From positions 1 to 64,000 of the forward strand of contig JADLBP010000323.1 of the NCBI GenBank assembly GCA_020847695.1: a stretch of DNA of 64,000 bases, given 5' to 3'. Below, in pieces: positions 2,409-27,699 of this stretch; position 1 is the stretch's first letter; every line of letters begins with the position of its first letter. A program made the position numbers and the translations under genes. This DNA comes from Planctomycetota bacterium. Lineage in GTDB: Bacteria > Planctomycetota > UBA1135 > GCA-002686595. Below the pieces are notes generated by a model. The model saw nothing but the letters and a program-made list of their open reading frames with translations. It was not told the origin of the DNA and searched no databases.

Positions 2409-2883
2409 GGTGGGCTCCTGGGTGGGGACGACGAAACGAGTCTGACAGCCAGCACGCCACGCGGGCGCCAGAGCGTTCAAGAAGCCGAACGAATCCGTCG
2501 ACGCGCGCTCCGGGGACGCCCACCGAACCGCGGACTTCCAGCGGCCGACGACGCCTTTCACGTGGCGCCGCGAGCTCGGGGCGCGCGCGTGCTCGCGTCG
2601 CGACGGCCCCGGATCGGGCGCGCTGGAGCGCCGGAAGGACCTTCCTTGCTCGTTCGCGGCCGGGCCGGCTCTAGAATGCCGCGCCCTTTTTTCGACAGAG
2701 CCCCTCCCGAAACCCCCGTTCGGGCCGCTCGCTCCCGGGTCGTCGACCCGGCGTGCGCGGTTCGCGCGGCGCCCCGCGGAAGTCCCGAGCTCCTGGATCG
2801 TCCCACGACGACTCCACGGCGACCGGGCCGACCCTTCGGGCGGACGGGTGCGGTCGTGGTTCGACGAGCGTCAAGGAGACCGA

Positions 2884-4359
2884 GTGAAGTTCGAAGAGAT
2901 CAAGGAACGCGCCGCGAAGGCGAAGCAAGACGGCCAGGAGATCATCGTGGTCCTCGGCCTCGGATTCGTCGGCACCGCGGTGGTCGCCAACCTGGCGCGG
3001 ACGATGGCGAACGCGAAGCGGATGTTCTTCGTCGTCGGCCTCGATCGCGACGACGCACCCGGTCGCGAGAAGGTCGCGCGGCTCGACGCCGGCCGTTCAC
3101 CGACGTACGCGAACGATCCTAGCCTGGAGACCGTGATCGGCGCCGCGGCGAAGGAGCCGCGCAACGCGATCGGCACGACCGATCCGCGCGTGATCTCGCT
3201 CGCCGATGTCGTGATCTCGTGCATCAACCTCGACCTCGTGCGCGAGCCCGGCCAGACCGAGGTTCTCGACTGCCCGACCGCCGGCTACGCCGCGGCGATG
3301 AAAATGGTCGGCGAGCACATGCAGCCGGGCACGCTGGTCACGGTCGAGAGCACGCTCCCGCTCGGTTGCTCCGATCGCGTGCTCTATCCCGCGCTCTGCG
3401 AAGGCCAGAAGAAGCGCGGCGTCGACGTCGTCAAGGACCCGCCGATGCTCGCGTACTGCTACGAGCGCGTGATGCCCGGTCCCGATTACCTCGACTCGGT
3501 CAACAACTTCTGGCGCGCGTTCGCCGGCATCGACAAGCGGAGCTCCGACCGCGCCGAGGCGTTCCTCGCGAAGTACGTCAACGTCGAGAAGTACCCGCTC
3601 TGGCGACACAAGACGATCCGCGCGGCGGAGATGGGCAAGTTGCTCGAGAACAGCTACCGCGCGACCAACATCGCGTTCATCGAGGAGTGGGCGAAGATGG
3701 CCGAGCGCGTCGGCGTCGATCTCTTCGACGTCGTGCGCTCGATCCGGCTGCGCAAGGGCACGCACGACAACATGATGTTCCCCGGCCTCGGCGTCGGCGG
3801 TTACTGCCTGACCAAGGACGCGCTGCTCGCGGCGTTCGGCGCGGAGAAGTTGCTCGGCGTCGAAGCCGAGCTCCCGTTCTCGCGCCGTGCGATCCTGACC
3901 AACGAGAAGATGCCGTTGCGCGCCGTCGAGGCGATCGAGAAGCACTTCAAGGCCGGGCTCGCCGGCAAGCGCGCCGCGTTGATCGGCGTCACGTACCGCC
4001 CGGGCGTCGCCGATACGCGTAGCTCGCCCTCGGAGATCGTCGCGCGCGAGCTCGTGAAGCGCGGCGTCGAAGTGCGCGCGTACGACCCGTTGATCGACCT
4101 CTGGGAGGAGTTCCCGGAGATCGCGATGTCCAAGGACGCCGCGAGCGCGCTGACCGGCGCCGACATCGTCGTGATCTGTCTGCCGGACGCGCACTACAAG
4201 AACTACCTGCCCGAGCTCCTGAAGCAGAAGCTCGCGCGCGGCTCGATCGTGGTCGACGCGTGGAGCTTGATCACCGACGCGCTCGGCGCGCACTGCGCGG
4301 AGAACGGGATCAAGCTGGTCGTCTACGGGCGCGGTGACGTGCCGGCGCTGAAGGCCTGA
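2884..4359 (+). CDS. UDP-glucose/GDP-mannose dehydrogenase family (nucleotide sugar dehydrogenase)
   Basis: Rossmann motif VVLGLGFVGTAVVANLA; GVGGYCLTKDALL; C-terminal domain ALIGVTYRPGVADTRSSPSEIVARELVKRG. GTG start at 2884 with upstream AAGGAG. Confidence 0.9.
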   Translation: MKFEEIKERAAKAKQDGQEIIVVLGLGFVGTAVVANLARTMANAKRMFFVVGLDRDDAPGREKVARLDAGRSPTYANDPSLETVIGAAAKEPRNAIGTTDPRVISLADVVISCINLDLVREPGQTEVLDCPTAGYAAAMKMVGEHMQPGTLVTVESTLPLGCSDRVLYPALCEGQKKRGVDVVKDPPMLAYCYERVMPGPDYLDSVNNFWRAFAGIDKRSSDRAEAFLAKYVNVEKYPLWRHKTIRAAEMGKLLENSYRATNIAFIEEWAKMAERVGVDLFDVVRSIRLRKGTHDNMMFPGLGVGGYCLTKDALLAAFGAEKLLGVEAELPFSRRAILTNEKMPLRAVEAIEKHFKAGLAGKRAALIGVTYRPGVADTRSSPSEIVARELVKRGVEVRAYDPLIDLWEEFPEIAMSKDAASALTGADIVVICLPDAHYKNYLPELLKQKLARGSIVVDAWSLITDALGAHCAENGIKLVVYGRGDVPALKA

Positions 4360-4366
4360 GGCGGCG

Positions 4367-5317
4367 ATGGGCGCACGCATCCTGGTCACCGGCGCCGCGG
4401 GCGTGATCGGTTTCGAGCTCGCGCGGCAGATCGCCGAGCGTGGCGACGAGCTCGTCGCGATCGATTGCGGCAAGAAGGGCGGGCTCGAGGACCTCGATGC
4501 GCTCGCCGCGAAGCACGGGAAGCGCGTCAAGGTGCTCCACGACGACCTCGCGCTCGCGCCGCTCGAGCTCGACGGACGGTTCGACGCGATCTTCCACCTC
4601 GCGGCGATCGTCGGCGTGAAGTACGTGACCGACCATCCCTACGAGACGATGGTCGTCAACATGCGGAGCACGCTCGAGGTGCTCGACTTCGCGCTTCGTT
4701 CGAAGTCCGGTCCGTTCTTCTTCGCGTCCTCGAGCGAGAACTACGCTTCCGGCGTCGACGCGGGCTTCGTCAAGGTGCCGACGCCCGAGGACGTGATCCT
4801 CTCGATCGATCGCATCGCGTTGCCGCGCTGGTCCTACGCGGCGAGCAAGCTCGCCGGCGAGAGCGCGGTGTTCGGCGCCGCGAGCGAGCACGGGCTCCAT
4901 CCGATCGTCGTGCGCTTCCACAACGTCTACGGACCGCGCATGGGGCAGACGCACGTGATCCCCGAGATGCTCCAGCGCGTGCGCGAGCGCGTCGATCCGT
5001 TCCCGATCTACGGCGCGGACCAGACGCGCTCGTTCCTCTACGTCGAGGACGCCGGGCGAGCGCTGTTGACCGTGCTCGACGCGGCGCTCGCGGGCGCGTC
5101 GGGGCTCTACAACATCGGTTCGCCGCACGAGAAGCGCATCGACGAGCTCGCGCGCACGATCTTCGACGTCACCGGCTTCCATCCGAAGCTCGATCCGCAT
5201 CCCGCGCCTCCAGGCTCGGTCGCGCGCCGGGCGCCGGACCTCGCCAAGCTCTCCGCCCTCGGCTTCGCGCCGCGCTTCGGGCTCGAAGAGGGGCTGCGAG
5301 CCTGCTGGAAGCGCTGA
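4367..5317 (+). CDS. NAD-dependent epimerase/dehydratase (extended SDR)
   Basis: ILVTGAAGVIGFELARQ, SYAASKLAGES (YxxxK), HNVYGPRMG; 7 bp after the previous gene. Confidence 0.9.
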   Translation: MGARILVTGAAGVIGFELARQIAERGDELVAIDCGKKGGLEDLDALAAKHGKRVKVLHDDLALAPLELDGRFDAIFHLAAIVGVKYVTDHPYETMVVNMRSTLEVLDFALRSKSGPFFFASSSENYASGVDAGFVKVPTPEDVILSIDRIALPRWSYAASKLAGESAVFGAASEHGLHPIVVRFHNVYGPRMGQTHVIPEMLQRVRERVDPFPIYGADQTRSFLYVEDAGRALLTVLDAALAGASGLYNIGSPHEKRIDELARTIFDVTGFHPKLDPHPAPPGSVARRAPDLAKLSALGFAPRFGLEEGLRACWKR

Positions 5318-9718: not shown

Positions 9719-9965
9719 TCGCGAAGTCGGCGGGATGCGCTGCAGTGAGGTGCTCACCGACCTCTCCAGCTACTTCGACGGCGAACTCGACGCGGCCCGT
9801 CGCGCGCAGATCGAGTCGCACGTCACCGGCTGCGACGTGTGCGCGCGCTTCGGCGGTCGTTTCGCGGAAGCGGTCAAGGCGCTGCAACGCGAGCTCAACT
9901 CGCGCGCGCCGGCGGACGCCGAGGTCCTCGCGCGGCTGCGCACTCGGTTGACGCGCGAGCTCTGA
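9708..9965 (+). CDS. Zinc-finger (zf-HC2-like) anti-sigma factor
   Basis: MRCSEVLTDLSSYFDGELDAARRAQIESHVTGCDVCARF (H-x3-C-x2-C); overlaps the sigma gene by 11 bp. Confidence 0.8.
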   Translation: MLPDREVGGMRCSEVLTDLSSYFDGELDAARRAQIESHVTGCDVCARFGGRFAEAVKALQRELNSRAPADAEVLARLRTRLTREL

Positions 9966-10171
9966 GCTCGTGTGAACGAATCGATCGCTCGGCCCCACGC
10001 GCGCAAGCGAGCTCGTGTGGCCGCGATCGGTGCCCAGCCGACCACGCGCAGCACGTTCCGCCGCCGCGGACCGCGTGGCGCCGGCTCGCGTCGGCTTCGT
10101 GTCGCCGCGCACGGCCGGCGTCCGTCGCTCGGGCGCATCTGGTAAGCTCGCTCGCCGAGGGAATCGCGCGC

Positions 10172-11143
10172 ATGAGCCAGAAACGACCCGACGAGGCCGC
10201 CGCCGGCGCGTCCGTGAACCCGGCCTGGAGCTCCGAGAAGCCCGCCGGCATCCCGGTGCGCACGCCGAAGCCGGCGTGGTTGAAGGTGCCGCTGCCCGGC
10301 GGCGAGGGCTACGCGAAGCTGAAGGCGCTGACCGAGTCGCTGAAGCTGAACACCGTCTGCCAGGAGGCGCGCTGCCCGAACGTCGGCGAGTGTTGGAAGG
10401 GCGAGCACGCGACGATGACGCTGATGGTGCTCGGCGACGAGTGCACGCGGCGTTGTCGCTTCTGCGCGGTCAAGACCGTCGATCGCGCGGCGCCGCCGGA
10501 TCCCGACGAGCCGTTGCACGTCGGGCAGGCGGTCGCGGCGATGAAGCTCGCCTACGTGGTGATCACCAGCGTCGATCGCGACGACCTCGCCGACGGCGGC
10601 TCCGCGCACTACGCGGAGTGCATCCGCCGTGTGCGCGAGCTCGCGCCCCAGACGATCGTCGAGACGCTGATCCCGGACTACCAGGGCGATTCGCTCGCGA
10701 CGCTGATGGCCGCGGCGCCCGACGTGCTCGCGCACAACGTCGAAGTCGTCGATCGGCTCCAGCGCAAGATCCGCGATCCGCGTTGCTCGTTCGAGCGCTC
10801 GCTGTCGACGTTGCGCGGCGCGAAACGGCTCGACGGCAAGGTCTTCACGAAGTCGTCGCTGATGCTCGGCCTCGGCGAGACGCACGAGGAGGTCGTCGAG
10901 AGCCTCGAACGACTGCGCGCGGCGGAAGTCGACTTCCTGACGCTCGGCCAGTACCTGCGGCCGACCGAGAACCACGCGCCGGTGCGCGAGTACGTGCACC
11001 CCGATCGCTTCCTCGCGTACCAGAAGCTCGGCGAGCAACTGGGCTTCCGCTACGTCGCGTCCGGCCCGTTGGTGCGCTCGAGCTACAAGGCGGGCGAGTT
11101 CTTCGCCGCCCGCCTCGTGCGCGAGCGTCGCGCGGAACGCTGA
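10172..11143 (+). CDS. lipA: Lipoyl synthase
   Basis: CQEARCPNVGECWKG...GDECTRRCRFCAVKT (auxiliary and radical-SAM cluster Cys), KSSLMLGLGETHEEV. Confidence 0.95.
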   Translation: MSQKRPDEAAAGASVNPAWSSEKPAGIPVRTPKPAWLKVPLPGGEGYAKLKALTESLKLNTVCQEARCPNVGECWKGEHATMTLMVLGDECTRRCRFCAVKTVDRAAPPDPDEPLHVGQAVAAMKLAYVVITSVDRDDLADGGSAHYAECIRRVRELAPQTIVETLIPDYQGDSLATLMAAAPDVLAHNVEVVDRLQRKIRDPRCSFERSLSTLRGAKRLDGKVFTKSSLMLGLGETHEEVVESLERLRAAEVDFLTLGQYLRPTENHAPVREYVHPDRFLAYQKLGEQLGFRYVASGPLVRSSYKAGEFFAARLVRERRAER

Positions 11144-11164
11144 ACTCGTCCGGTCGCGTTGGCC

Positions 11165-11773
11165 ATGACGCTCGGAGGCCTCCTCTCGGACGTGCCGCAG
11201 TGGGTGTACGACACGTCGGGCTCGGTGTGCGTCGTCGTCTCGCTCGTCCATCTGTTCGAGAAGCGCGTCACGTACTGGCACTGGTCGAACGCCAGCCTGA
11301 TCCCGTACTTCCTGCTGTTCGCGGGCACGCGTCAGTACATGCTCGCCGGGCTCCAGGTCAGCTACCTGATCTTCGGCATCCACGGTTGGTGGTTGTGGAA
11401 GCTCGAAGCGCGGCGCGATCGTCACGGCACCCGTTTCGCCGAGGGCTTCTGGTACAACCTCGGTTGGGTCCTCACGCTCGCGATCTTCGCGTACACCGCG
11501 GCGATCACCGAGTTGGTGGGGGTGTGGGCGTGGCTGCAGTTCGCGATCACGAGCCTCGCGCTGATCGCCAACTGGGGCACGACGCGCAAGTGGCGCTGGA
11601 GCTGGTTCGTCTGGATGGCGGTCAACGTCGCGAGCGCGATCTACTTCGCACGCCAGGGCTTCTGGGCGCAGTTCGCGCTGCAGTTCGTCCTTTTCGCGAT
11701 GTCGGTCCAAGGCGCCCGCGCTTGGCGTCGGAAGAGCTCGACGAGCACCTCACCGCATGCCGTCGTCATTTGA
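11165..11773 (+). CDS. pnuC: PnuC-like nicotinamide riboside transporter
   Basis: Multi-TM; QYMLAGLQVSYLIFGIHGWWLWKL...NWGTTRKWRWSWFVWMAVNVASAIYFARQGFWAQFALQFVLFAM. Confidence 0.9.
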   Translation: MTLGGLLSDVPQWVYDTSGSVCVVVSLVHLFEKRVTYWHWSNASLIPYFLLFAGTRQYMLAGLQVSYLIFGIHGWWLWKLEARRDRHGTRFAEGFWYNLGWVLTLAIFAYTAAITELVGVWAWLQFAITSLALIANWGTTRKWRWSWFVWMAVNVASAIYFARQGFWAQFALQFVLFAMSVQGARAWRRKSSTSTSPHAVVI

Positions 11774-22105: not shown

Positions 22106-23386
22106 TCAGCGTTGAGCGGCGGTCTTCCAGCCCGGGAAGAGCTCGTCGAGGTCGTGTTTCTCGATCACCGGCTGACCGCGCTCGTCGCGTTCCGCGAGCG
22201 TGAACGTGCAGCCGCTCAAGACGACGCCGTTGGGAGGATCCGTGAAGAAACCCTCGGGTTCGCGCGTGCCTGGGAAGCTGCAACGATCGAACACGAGCGT
22301 CGCGCGCTCCTGCAGATGTCGACTGGGGACGTCCAGGTTCGCGAGGACACAGTTCTCGAAGCGCGCGAGCAGCGCCGAGGTCCGCACGTCGAAGAGCGAG
22401 CCGCTGCTCGGGTGCCTTCCGTAACCGACCTCGATCCGCGAGTCGCGAACGAGCCACGCGCTGCCGCGCGTGTCGAACGCGGACGAGCTGCCTGCGCCGC
22501 AGTCGAACCCGACGACGCGCACGCGCTCGAGCACGACGGTCGCCGGGTTGGTGCGCAGGTCGAAGACGTTGTCGGCGTAGATCGTCGCGTCGCTGATCTC
22601 GATGCGTTCGAGCACATCGCGCGCGTGCAGCGCTTCCCAGACGAGCAGTGTGCGATCCATTCCCGCGCCGCGCAGCGCGAGACAGCGCGGGAACCGTCTG
22701 CCGCCGTTCACGTTCGACAGCGCAACGCGATGGACGCCCGCGCCCCAGCGCAACTCGGCACCGTCCGGCACGGGCGTGTCGCGGTTGGCGGCGAGCGTCG
22801 CACCCTCGAGCACTTCGCCGCTGACGCCGCTCTTGCAATCGAAGAGCTTGGCGAAGCGCTCGGCGTCGCCGACGAGCTCGACGAACGGACCGACTTCGTC
22901 GCGCTCCATGCATTCGAGCAGCGTGAACGCATCCGCGGAGGCGAGCGCGTTCGCGAGCGCTTCCGCCTGAGTCGCCGCCTCGGCGAGGCGTGTGCCGATC
23001 GCGTCGGGCAGGGCGAGCACCTCGGCCCGGAATTGCTGCCAGCCCGCGTCGAGCGTCGCCTGGGGAATCGGCTGCGAGCGCAGCTTGCGCCACGCGGCTT
23101 CGATGCCGTCGCGCGCGTAGCGCTCGAGCGCTGCGGAGAAGAGCGGGTCGGCGCTCGACGACGCCGACGAGCCGCGAGCAGCGGGCGCATCCGCGGTTTC
23201 GCGCTGAGCTTCCGTCGTCGCGACGACCAGTTCGGTCGGCGGCGGGGTGCGCGCAACGGGAGCGCCGTCTGCGTCGAGCGAGCCCTCGTCCGACGAACTC
23301 GCCGGACCTGAGCGAAGCCCGAAGAACGCCGCGGCGGATCCGAAGCCCACGGCGAGTCCGACGACGAGTGCGAGCGGAGACTTCAT
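22106..23386 (-). CDS. Hypothetical signal-anchored protein with right-handed parallel beta-helix-like region
   Basis: N-term MKSPLALVVGLAVGFGSAAAFFGL; C-terminal repeated ILxxVRVxGFD/LVRDSRIEV/ARFENCVLANL/LVFDRCSF rungs. Confidence 0.7.
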   Translation of the reverse strand: MKSPLALVVGLAVGFGSAAAFFGLRSGPASSSDEGSLDADGAPVARTPPPTELVVATTEAQRETADAPAARGSSASSSADPLFSAALERYARDGIEAAWRKLRSQPIPQATLDAGWQQFRAEVLALPDAIGTRLAEAATQAEALANALASADAFTLLECMERDEVGPFVELVGDAERFAKLFDCKSGVSGEVLEGATLAANRDTPVPDGAELRWGAGVHRVALSNVNGGRRFPRCLALRGAGMDRTLLVWEALHARDVLERIEISDATIYADNVFDLRTNPATVVLERVRVVGFDCGAGSSSAFDTRGSAWLVRDSRIEVGYGRHPSSGSLFDVRTSALLARFENCVLANLDVPSRHLQERATLVFDRCSFPGTREPEGFFTDPPNGVVLSGCTFTLAERDERGQPVIEKHDLDELFPGWKTAAQR

Positions 23387-23639
23387 TCGCCCAGCGTGCC
23401 GCGCCGCGCCGCGCCTGTCGAGTCTTCGAGGCCGGTCGAACGGATCGAACGCGCTTCGACCCTCGTTCGGCGAGTCGGCCGCGTCGTCGGGGACGCGAGT
23501 CCGCTCTGCCGAGCAGATGAATCGCACGTGCTCATGGTCGGACAACCGCTCGCGTCGACGTGCTCTCGACTCGGACCCGCGTCCTTTCGCGGCGACGGTT
23601 CGCAGCGGCCGACGGAGACGCGGCGCGCCGAGGATCCGC

Positions 23640-24167
23640 TCAGATCGAGCCGTCGGGCATCACGCGGCCGTCGGCGCCCCACTTGTCGCAGTCCGCGTCT
23701 TTGCCCGGAACTCGACCGCACAGAGAGTCCCCGTGGTACGTCGTGAAGCCGTCCTTCGATCCGGAGACCATGCCGCAGTCCGAATCGGTGTTGGACTTGC
23801 CCTCGGGAGTGAACGACGCGCAATCGTCGTCGGACGAGACCTCGAGCTGAGCGCTGAAGCTCAAGGGCATCGCGCAGTCGTAGTCGCCGGGCGATTGCTG
23901 GTAGTTGCACTCCGCGTCGATCAGCAGCACGCCGTTCTCGTTGTACTTGCCGCAGCCGTCGTGCGGCGGCGGGAAGTCGAGCCCGCAGTCGTACCATTCG
24001 CACGACTTGTCGTTGAAGGCCCTCGCCAGCCGAGTGCCGCCGAAGAGGAACACGAAGTTCGTCAGAGCGAGCCGGCGCAACAGTTCGCGTCGGTCGCGGG
24101 GCTCTCCGTCCTGAGCTGCTTCGTTCGGTTCGGGTCGCTGCTGTTCGTTGGGCTGTTCGGCGTTCAT
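23640..24167 (-). CDS. Cys-rich exported protein with Tat-like leader; candidate substrate of the adjacent radical SAM maturase
   Basis: RDRRELLRRLALTNFVFLFGGTRLARA leader then 9 Cys; ATG overlaps the maturase stop codon (ATGA). Confidence 0.8.
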   Translation of the reverse strand: MNAEQPNEQQRPEPNEAAQDGEPRDRRELLRRLALTNFVFLFGGTRLARAFNDKSCEWYDCGLDFPPPHDGCGKYNENGVLLIDAECNYQQSPGDYDCAMPLSFSAQLEVSSDDDCASFTPEGKSNTDSDCGMVSGSKDGFTTYHGDSLCGRVPGKDADCDKWGADGRVMPDGSI

Positions 24168-25699
24168 GGCTTGCTGTCTCCGTGTGCAGGGGGCGCACTC
24201 CGCTCGCCGGCCGGAGTCGACGTGGACTCAGCCTCGATCGCTGCGAGCCAGAGCAGTCGTTCGGTGCCGCGTCGGATCTCGTCGCAGCTCGCGTCGTCGG
24301 GAGTTCCCACATGACCGTCGGGGCGCGACAGGTACCACGGGCACTGGCCGCCGCAGATCGCGCGGGCCCAGCAGGCGGAGCAGTGCCGGTCGTATCCGTC
24401 GAAGATCTCGGCGAAGTAGCGGCCGAGGCGTTCGCGGTCGATACCGGTGCTCAGAGTCCCGATCCGGTAGCTCTCCTCGCCTGCGTAGCGGTGGCAGGGA
24501 TACAGATCGCCGTGCTCGGTTACCGCGGTGGTGTTTCGACCCGTGCCGCACATCGGAGTGCGACGTACTTGCAGCCCCGACGCGAGACCGTCGCGCACGC
24601 GCTTCAGCCCTGCGCTGAAATCGAATCCGAGCGGAGGGCGAACCGTATCGTCTCTGCGCGACTCGAGATACTGGTCGAGCGCACGTTCGACATCGGCGTT
24701 CGCAGAGGCGGTCTCGCTGCCTCCGAAGTCGGTCCAGCGTTTCTCGTGCGCGCGGCCATCGCTCGAACCGATCATCGTGCGCTGGAAGTCATTCTCGGCG
24801 AAATACCCTGCGACGGCTTCGCGTGATGGATTCTGCTGTGTCAACGTCGCACGGATCATCGCTTCGCGCATTCCGGCTGCCCGCTGCGCGGCGATCAGCC
24901 TGCGAGCATTGGCGACCGCTTTGGCGGTCGTTCCCCGTCCGGCGTGATCGATACGTTGCCGATCGGCGAACTCAGGCGGCCCGTCGATGCTCACCATCAC
25001 GGCAAATCGGTGCTCGACGAGGAAGGCAATCTTCTCGTCGTCGAGCAGCGTTCCGTTGGTGGTCATTCGGAAGCCCACCGTCTTGCCGAGCTCTTCGGCT
25101 CGCACGTACGCCCGAGCGACCAGCTGCCGCACGAGCGCGAAGTTGAGCAGTGGCTCGCCTCCGAAGAACGTGATGTCGAGGTGCTTGCGCTTGCCAAGAC
25201 GCTGGAAGAGGAGCTCGAGCGACTGGAGCCCCGCGTCCAAGGACATCGACTTGCCGGTGTCGTGGAACTTGGCTGCGACTTCGTAGCAGTAGGTGCACTT
25301 CAGGTTGCAGGAGGTCTGGACGAGAACCTGTCCCGAGCGCGTCGGCAGCTCGATGTGTCGGCGGATCGAGTCGTCGCGTTCCTCGGGCGTTTCCAGTCGT
25401 TCGAGGACGAACAGGCCGAGATCGGCGAGCATCGTCACCTCCGCGAGGACGCTCTCGAGCGTCACGCCGCCGAAGTCACGCGTCAACCGGTCGGCGAGCA
25501 GCTCCGTCAGCTCGGCGTGCTCGAAGCCGCGGAGGAGCTCGAACGCCGCGGGGCTCGGTTGGAGCAACGAGCCGCTGTAGAGGTCGTACAGGATCCGGCG
25601 CCCGCGGTACTCGAAAGCATGGAACGTCGGTCGCTCGGGCGCGATCCGTTGGCGCAGTTCGTCGAGAGCGAGGCACAACGATTCCAGCGTGGCTTGCAT
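24164..25699 (-). CDS. Radical SAM/SPASM peptide/protein maturase
   Basis: CNLKCTYCYE (CX3CX2C), ITFFGGEPLLNF, MTTNGTLLDDEKI, SPASM-like Cys: MCGTGRNTTAVTEHGDLYPCHRYAGEE...CSACWARAICGGQCPW; N-terminal RRE/PqqD-like segment FHAFEYRGRRILYDLYSGSLLQPSPAAFELL. Confidence 0.92.
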   Translation of the reverse strand: MQATLESLCLALDELRQRIAPERPTFHAFEYRGRRILYDLYSGSLLQPSPAAFELLRGFEHAELTELLADRLTRDFGGVTLESVLAEVTMLADLGLFVLERLETPEERDDSIRRHIELPTRSGQVLVQTSCNLKCTYCYEVAAKFHDTGKSMSLDAGLQSLELLFQRLGKRKHLDITFFGGEPLLNFALVRQLVARAYVRAEELGKTVGFRMTTNGTLLDDEKIAFLVEHRFAVMVSIDGPPEFADRQRIDHAGRGTTAKAVANARRLIAAQRAAGMREAMIRATLTQQNPSREAVAGYFAENDFQRTMIGSSDGRAHEKRWTDFGGSETASANADVERALDQYLESRRDDTVRPPLGFDFSAGLKRVRDGLASGLQVRRTPMCGTGRNTTAVTEHGDLYPCHRYAGEESYRIGTLSTGIDRERLGRYFAEIFDGYDRHCSACWARAICGGQCPWYLSRPDGHVGTPDDASCDEIRRGTERLLWLAAIEAESTSTPAGERSAPPAHGDSKP

Positions 25700-25854: not shown

Positions 25855-27699
25855 TCAGCGCTTCGGCAGCGCGGTCGGGGCGGGGAGTTCCTCGCCCGGG
25901 TTGACGAAGCGCTCGTGCTCGAAGGCGTACTGACGGTCGTGCAGCTCTTTGTAGCGGCCGGCTTTTGCCAGCAGCTCGGCGTGCGTGCCGCGTTCGACGA
26001 TCTTGCCGTGCTCGAGCACCAGGATCTGGTCGGCGGAACGGATCGTCGAGAGCCTGTGCGCGATCACGAACGTCGTCCGGCTGCGGCGCAGGTTCTGCAG
26101 CGCGTCCTGGATCTTGAACTCGCTCTCGGAGTCGAGGCTCGACGTCGCTTCGTCGAGGATCAGCACCCTCGGCCTCGCGAGCAACGCCCGCGCGATCGCG
26201 ACGCGTTGGCGCTGGCCGCCGGAGAGCTTGATGCCGCGCTCGCCGACGATCGTGTCGTAGCCCTTCTCGAACTGCGCGACGAAGTCGTCGCAGTGCGCGA
26301 GGCGACACGCTTCCTCGATCTCCGCGCGCGTCGCGTCCGGGCGCGAGAACGCGACGTTCTCCGCGATGGTGCCGTCGAAGAGGAAGTTGTCCTGCAGCAC
26401 GACGCCGAGGTGCGCGCGGAAGTCGGCGAGCTTGAGGCTCGCGAGGTCCTTGCCGTCGACGGTGATCCGGCCGGACTTCGGGCGATTGAACGCCATCACC
26501 AGGCTGACCAGCGTGCTCTTGCCGGAGCCGCTGGAGCCGACCAACGCCGTCGTCGAGCCCGCGGGCGCGGTCAGCGAAACGTGCTCGAGCACCGGCTTGC
26601 CTTCGTCGTACTCGAACGACACGTCCTCGAACGTGAAGTCGCCTCGCAAGTCGGGGCACGCCGCGCGTTCGGCGTCGTGCTCGTCCTCGCGCGCGACGCG
26701 CCGGATCTCGCGCAGGCGATCGAGACCGGCGAACGCCTCGCTGATCTGGGTGCTGATCGACGCGATCTGCACCAGCGGTCCGACGACGAGCCCGATGAAC
26801 ACCAGGTACATCACGAAATCGCCGAGCGACATCTCCCCGGCGAGGATCGCGCGGCCGCCGACCAACGTCAGGATCACGCCGACGACGCCGACGATCGCGG
26901 TCGACACCGACGTCGTCAGCGACACGCCCATCATCGAGCGCCGGATGTTGTCGAAGAGCTTGTCGACGCCCGCCGAGAACACGCGTTCCTCGTGCTCCTC
27001 CGCGACGTACGCCTTGACGACGCGCACGCCGCCGAGCGTCTGCGTCAACCGGCCGCTGATGTCCGCCTGGATCTTGCCGCGCTCGCGGAACAAGGGCCGC
27101 AGCGTCTTGAACGCCTGCGTCATCGCGAGCCCGAAGATCGACAGCACGACCAGGATGATCAGCGTCAGCTTCCAGTTCAGGTAGAACAGCACGCCGATGC
27201 CGAGCACCGCCGACAACACGCCGCCGACGAGCTGCACGATGCCCGTGCCGACGAGGTTCCGGATGCCTTCGGCGTCGTTCATGATCCGCGAGATCAGCAC
27301 GCCGGTCTGCGTCGAGTCGAAGTAGCGCACCGGCAAGCGACCGATGTGCGCCTGCACCGTCTTGCGCATGTCGTTGATCGCGCGCTGCGCGGCGACGCCG
27401 AGCACTTGGCTGAGCCCGTACCCGGTGACCGCTTGCACCAACGTCGCGACGCCGCCTGCGATCGCGATCGGCCACAAGAGCTCGGCCTTGCCCTTGCCGA
27501 CGACGTCGTCGATCAGGATCTTCGAAGTCGCGGGCAACACCAGGCCCGCGAGTCGGCTGATCAACATCAAGAACAGCCCGATCAGCAGACGCTGCTTGTG
27601 CGCCGCGACCAGCTCGCGCGTCTCGCGCCACGCGTCCGAGAGCTTCGGTTTCTTCTTCTCGCCCGCGATCTTCTGGGCGGCGGTCGACGGGGCGGCCAT
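25855..27699 (-). CDS. ABC exporter, fused permease-ATPase (MsbA-like)
   Basis: TALVGSSGSGKSTLVSLVMAF, LSGGQRQRVAIARALLARPRVLILDEATSSLD, TTFVIAHRLSTI. Confidence 0.92.
   Translation of the reverse strand: MAAPSTAAQKIAGEKKKPKLSDAWRETRELVAAHKQRLLIGLFLMLISRLAGLVLPATSKILIDDVVGKGKAELLWPIAIAGGVATLVQAVTGYGLSQVLGVAAQRAINDMRKTVQAHIGRLPVRYFDSTQTGVLISRIMNDAEGIRNLVGTGIVQLVGGVLSAVLGIGVLFYLNWKLTLIILVVLSIFGLAMTQAFKTLRPLFRERGKIQADISGRLTQTLGGVRVVKAYVAEEHEERVFSAGVDKLFDNIRRSMMGVSLTTSVSTAIVGVVGVILTLVGGRAILAGEMSLGDFVMYLVFIGLVVGPLVQIASISTQISEAFAGLDRLREIRRVAREDEHDAERAACPDLRGDFTFEDVSFEYDEGKPVLEHVSLTAPAGSTTALVGSSGSGKSTLVSLVMAFNRPKSGRITVDGKDLASLKLADFRAHLGVVLQDNFLFDGTIAENVAFSRPDATRAEIEEACRLAHCDDFVAQFEKGYDTIVGERGIKLSGGQRQRVAIARALLARPRVLILDEATSSLDSESEFKIQDALQNLRRSRTTFVIAHRLSTIRSADQILVLEHGKIVERGTHAELLAKAGRYKELHDRQYAFEHERFVNPGEELPAPTALPKR

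Follow-up and report, generated by a model that had tools for sequence, protein, structure and literature searches.

A radical SAM/SPASM maturase and a Tat-leader DxxC-repeat protein form a recurrent two-gene unit in Planctomycetota

The gene pair and its recurrence

The locus described here lies in a window of 64,000 nucleotides—the whole stretch of planctomycete DNA that was analyzed—and comprises two genes, which like all features of the pair given below are located on the minus strand. The first (24164–25699) encodes a radical SAM/SPASM maturase of 511 amino acids with an N-terminal RRE-like domain, whose best PDB match by both fold and sequence is CteB. The second (23640–24167) encodes a protein of 175 amino acids with a Tat-type leader and D-x-x-C repeats; it is the predicted substrate of the maturase and is referred to as the partner in the following. 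The two genes overlap by an ATGA (24164–24167) combining the TGA stop of the maturase with the ATG start of the partner, just as the initial annotation had read it. Overlaps of four bases between maturase and partner are seen in L021, L022, and L037 as well.

A maturase profile built from eight relatives was searched in 154 genomes of the planctomycete class and in 392 genomes of the phylum. Core maturases (E ≤ 1e-113) are separated by a sharp gap from all other homologues (E ≥ 1e-87) and are present in nine of the 154 class genomes. The profile of the partner repeat unit (A3), which is independent of the maturase profile, matches in exactly the same nine class genomes, each time adjoining the maturase. 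Phylum-wide and over all searches, 15 of 15 core maturases adjoin a repeat partner with a twin-Arg leader—located downstream of the maturase in most loci, and upstream in L104, L105, and L122—while the weaker homologues that were inspected (E about 1e-70 to 1e-87) come without a DxxC-repeat partner. Maturase and partner are also the only gene families recurring in most loci. The comparison across class and phylum genomes hence bears out the two-gene unit proposed from the window alone. It is a real two-gene family that is unlabelled in the searched libraries: neither the pair nor the partner family has a counterpart in the family libraries or the literature searched, no Pfam or NCBIfam family was found for the partner, and the literature search combining radical SAM and twin-arginine with RiPP or thioether returned no paper. 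In a scan of named genomes with six short peptide patterns, relatives were found almost exclusively in Planctomycetota, which does not imply absence elsewhere.

Cys-rich homologues without a radical SAM neighbour had been named beforehand as an observation that would refute the initial interpretation. None is found in the 154 class genomes, and the wider phylum sample holds a single one. In this sample, two further genomes carry partners, G300 and G391. In G300, two partners adjoin a maturase that misses its radical SAM half. The orphan partner of G391 (L180, 3409–4110, plus strand) is leaderless and has a transposase-like gene as neighbour; its contig, 5.7 kb in length, carries no maturase. 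The partners of both genomes look like decaying copies. Partial maturases were seen at several loci—L023 (4700–5740) and L179 (13785–14562) lack the radical SAM core, and L140 (about 2500–3170) bears a shortened type-two enzyme—suggesting frequent decay of such units. In strain Pla86, whose pair occupies 9926–11473 and 11513–12388 of L017, a second DxxC partner (L017, 12389–13213, plus strand) directly follows the first, with a frame shift within its leader that marks either a pseudogene or a sequencing error.

On the same strand upstream of the maturase lies the gene of an MsbA-like ABC exporter (25855–27699; below curated cut-offs). Its distance of 155 bp had been stated correctly; its suggested role as alternative exporter of the partner is unsupported, as no such gene was found beside the other loci save for one weak and distant match in L104. 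The exporter was, therefore, rejected as a member of the unit. This bears on the reading of the partner as a conventional antimicrobial or signalling RiPP, which would be released by proteolysis and leave the cell through this transporter. Such a route has a precedent in QhpC, whose 28-residue leader is cut by QhpE and which exits via the ABC transporter QhpF (PMC7876137). Nevertheless, no peptidase or immunity gene recurs near the loci, the product is long and repetitive, and the partners bear a Tat-type leader, which leaves a conventional RiPP very improbable. On the other side of the pair, 95 bp downstream of the partner, the window encodes a protein of 479 amino acids (22106–23545, minus strand) without a Pfam match, which is likely membrane-anchored or secreted and is not found beside other loci.

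Anatomy and family placement of the maturase

The maturase scores 59.1 bits against Pfam Radical_SAM (PF04055; cut-off 29.5) and carries the 4Fe–4S cluster motif CX3CX2C, recognized already in the initial annotation, as CNLKCTYC (aa 131–138; 25286–25309). The motif is kept in all rows of alignment A1 that cover the site. What had been described as a SPASM-like Cys tail is a complete seven-Cys region (aa 384–472; 24284–24550), with C384, C402, C440, C443, C449, C453, and C472 invariant in the same alignment. The proposed RRE-like segment (aa 25–95; 25415–25627) is supported by the AF2 model (mean pLDDT 86.9), which shows a strand-strand-strand-helix-helix-helix succession for aa 26–93, and by alignment to the N-terminus of CteB (5wgg); a Pfam RRE/PqqD match was not found in the maturase.

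The closest NCBIfam models are those of the PapB, QhpD, NlpM, and SCIFF maturases. PapB (NF047865) scores best with 225 bits against a cut-off of 340—the maximum of the clade being 289 bits for the L123 maturase—against 223 bits for QhpD (TIGR03906; cut-off 453) and 203 bits for the SCIFF maturase (TIGR03974; cut-off 425). The enzyme reaches the curated cut-off of none of the named families, and filing it as QhpD, PapB, or SCIFF maturase was ruled out. In a tree, a supported branch (SH-aLRT 96) separates the 13 DxxC-paired maturases tested from CteB, QhpD, NlpM, and unpaired planctomycete homologues. The QhpD-like grouping assumed earlier gains comparative support, and membership in TIGR03906 itself does not hold. 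Furthermore, the structural genes QhpA, QhpB, and QhpC were not found in the operon.

In the structure search, CteB is the top match, followed by anSME structures as second fold match. The SCIFF maturase CteB is the closest solved structure across the full length, RRE included. SCIFF, however, is a small clostridial peptide with six Cys, whereas the neighbour of the window maturase is a long repeat protein with a Tat leader. Judging by their names, the CXXX-repeat and Cys-every-fifth systems (TIGR04115, NF038107) likewise combine a radical SAM/SPASM enzyme with neighbouring Cys-repeat targets. Their models score far lower, and to our knowledge neither an Asp rule nor a Tat leader is described for them.

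Repeat body and leader of the partner

The repeat body of the partner runs from C56 to the C-terminus (23643–24002). Nine Cys had been counted in it, six of them directly after Asp or Glu; the count is correct, but the Asp/Glu-Cys step is not what relatives conserve. Among 220 body Cys of 17 partners, the residue at position −3 is Asp in 200 cases, Glu in three, and Asn in one, whereas Asp at −1 is optional (89 of 220). The D/E-C step was, therefore, dropped in favour of D-x-x-C, which in the window occurs as D84/C87, D95/C98, D113/C116, D128/C131, D147/C150, and D157/C160, with D172 as terminal Asp. In an earlier set of 14 proteins with 178 Cys, Asp occupies −3 in 161 cases versus 24.8 expected by shuffling. 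At positions +1, +2, and +3 of Cys, Asp is depleted.

The two ends of the chains reveal a polarity. The first Cys carries Asp(−3) in only eight of 17 partners, as opposed to 192 of 203 internal Cys (Fisher p = 1e-6), with about 5% of the internal Cys deviating. An Asp follows the last Cys in 17 of 17 chains (shuffled mean 13.7, P about 0.01), which alone is weak evidence since Asp is abundant (14%). Taken together, the frequent lack of Asp(−3) at the first Cys and the Asp after every last Cys let the unit be read as Cys-x(n)-Asp with Cys in the leading position, as in PapB and QhpD substrates. Among the common Cys-to-Asp distances, the shortest is 4, the CX3D spacing native to PapB, and the main mode lies at 11–14. 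Repeated units with Cys on the N-terminal side of the acceptor are also the arrangement of ranthipeptides, which fits the linkage proposed below and does not prove it; the polarity could reflect the start of the repeat unit instead of chemistry. Read in this direction, the predicted links of the window partner would include C56–D60, C72–D84, C87–D95, C98–D113, C116–D128, C131–D147, C150–D157, and C160–D172.

SPASM enzymes are known for a range of Cys chemistries, and the maturase might install another one: an α-carbon thioether to the Gly after Cys or to another residue, a formylglycine, or rings that run backward to Asp(−3). The anSME fold match is in line with this, as is Gly directly after Cys in 87 of 178 cases of the 14-protein set. 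This Gly is, however, far less constant than Asp(−3), which a formylglycine or a Gly link would leave unexplained, and sulfatase-maturase models score far below those of PapB, QhpD, and SCIFF maturases. Backward rings would need Asp(−3) at the first Cys, where it is missing in nine of 17 partners. We, hence, regard these chemistries as unlikely, albeit as the most serious competitor of the Cys-to-Asp link.

Less likely still, and rather improbable overall, is that the partners are secreted repeats that bind metal—for instance Ca2+—or form disulfides, with the radical SAM enzyme acting once or never. In composition, the Asp/Gly-rich Cys repeats do resemble calcium-binding repeats, and free Cys could form disulfides once exported. 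Against this stand the perfect co-occurrence with a single maturase clade in the class, the lack of a Pfam calcium-binding or other domain in the partner, and a Cys count that is odd in 12 of the 17 partners. Metal ligands usually vary, while Asp(−3) is almost never swapped for Asn, Glu, or Ser. Moreover, the leader is of the Tat and not of the Sec type.

This leader—the twin-arginine-type signal of aa 25–50, DRRELLRRLALTNFVFLFGGTRLARA (24018–24095)—contains D-R-R-E-L-L followed by a hydrophobic stretch. The nine aligned partners keep both Arg without exception, and further intact leaders have the pair as well, which supports the twin-Arg-like leader proposed originally. Curated Tat signal models gave no match to the window partner; the L123 partner comes close with 15.6 bits (cut-off 16.7). 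As the source genome encodes TatC and the leader Arg pair is invariant, we infer that the partner would be modified in the cytosol and then exported by the Tat pathway. Predicted by AF2 as a chain on its own, the partner is unfolded (pLDDT 46.8, from a shallow alignment). Since the naked chain is predicted to be unfolded, rings would supply its shape.

Proposed modification, export, and wider group

The formation of successive Cys-to-Asp thioether rings in the cytosol, followed by Tat export, would best explain the pair, and we consider it the probable reading. The maturase would bind its partner, presumably via the RRE domain contacting the partner N-terminus, and would use SAM and its Fe–S clusters to abstract a hydrogen from an Asp side chain. 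This Asp carbon—presumably the β carbon—would then join the sulfur of the preceding Cys in a thioether. Repeated unit after unit, the modification would lay down Cys-x(n)-Asp rings in line and thereby stiffen an otherwise unstructured chain, before the ringed chain crosses the cytoplasmic membrane. The Tat pathway accepts pre-formed structures. Most likely, the final product would be a secreted or cell-surface protein with a structural or binding role. A small diffusible peptide is less likely in view of the length of the mature part, the lack of a recurrent protease or immunity gene nearby, and the fact that the two genes alone travel together.

Two characterized systems come closest to this proposal. 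QhpD, which acts in the maturation of quinohemoprotein amine dehydrogenase, forms three thioethers from Cys to Asp/Glu in QhpC in the cytoplasm, before translocation to the periplasm (PMC7876137). Both pairs combine an enzyme of RRE, radical SAM, and SPASM domains with a protein-sized substrate and with a linkage of Cys to Asp/Glu—predicted for the window—and an ATGA overlap likewise couples the Paracoccus genes for QhpD and QhpC (L181, 5380–5383; L182, 2910–2913). QhpC, on the contrary, is not repetitive and belongs to an enzyme operon, and QhpD falls outside the DxxC clade. PapB, the maturase of the ranthipeptide freyrasin, joins Cys to the Asp β carbon in CX3D motifs and tolerates n = 0–6, and PapA carries six CX3D/E motifs in one peptide (PMC9413430). 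PapA and the DxxC partners share several Cys-x(n)-Asp units per substrate, and the CX3D spacing occurs in the latter too. PapA is a peptide, however, whereas the DxxC partners have mostly x(5) to x(15) units, 7–21 Cys, and a Tat-type leader. Their modal Cys-to-Asp distance of 11–14 exceeds the range of n tested for PapB, which counts against the proposed chemistry. The initial interpretation as a whole is partly supported: enzyme–substrate pair, QhpD-like group, and Tat leader gain comparative support, and so does the Cys–Asp chemistry—by Asp(−3), polarity, and the likeness to PapB and QhpD—with the linkage itself still a prediction.

The substrates of Cys–Asp thioether makers known to us are short peptides or one enzyme subunit. 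If the proposal is true, a single protein receives up to about twenty rings in succession by this chemistry and is then passed through Tat, which would unite RiPP-type modification with the export of folded proteins. The pair would be a new source of multi-ring proteins that are stable and genetically coded. Comprising two genes and occurring in the sequenced strain Pla86, it would also be a minimal system for studying how a radical enzyme processes many variably spaced sites and which functions ringed proteins have on the planctomycete surface.

Related but distinct maturases, whose best model is again PapB, are found near other Tat-leader repeat proteins, suggesting a wider group. Tentatively, and with somewhat less than even confidence, one may envisage that planctomycetes have a whole class of polythioether repeat proteins exported by Tat, whose PapB-related maturases follow a simple code: a Cys and, at a fixed position ahead of the next Cys, its acceptor. 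The acceptor would be Asp(−3), Asn(−2), or Phe/Trp(−2), and the cross-link chemistry would have diversified within one architecture, giving long, covalently ringed secreted proteins. The Asn(−2) and Phe/Trp(−2) types are a lead only, as they comprise four proteins, and the maturases of L046 and L049 do not directly adjoin the repeat proteins. The proteins of L046 (4877–5971 and 6005–7186, minus strand) and L119 (9052–9819, plus strand) bear 19–33 Cys in N-x-C repeats, with a PapB-like maturase nearby. Asn precedes Cys at −2 in 58 cases versus 10.7 expected; it is missing from the first Cys (0 of 3), and Asn or Asp follows the last one. In L049, a PapB-like maturase lies at a distance of about 2 kb from the gene (4523–5062, minus strand) of a Tat-leader protein whose repeats are of the [F/W]-x-C type; an aromatic residue occupies −2 of seven out of nine internal Cys of this protein.
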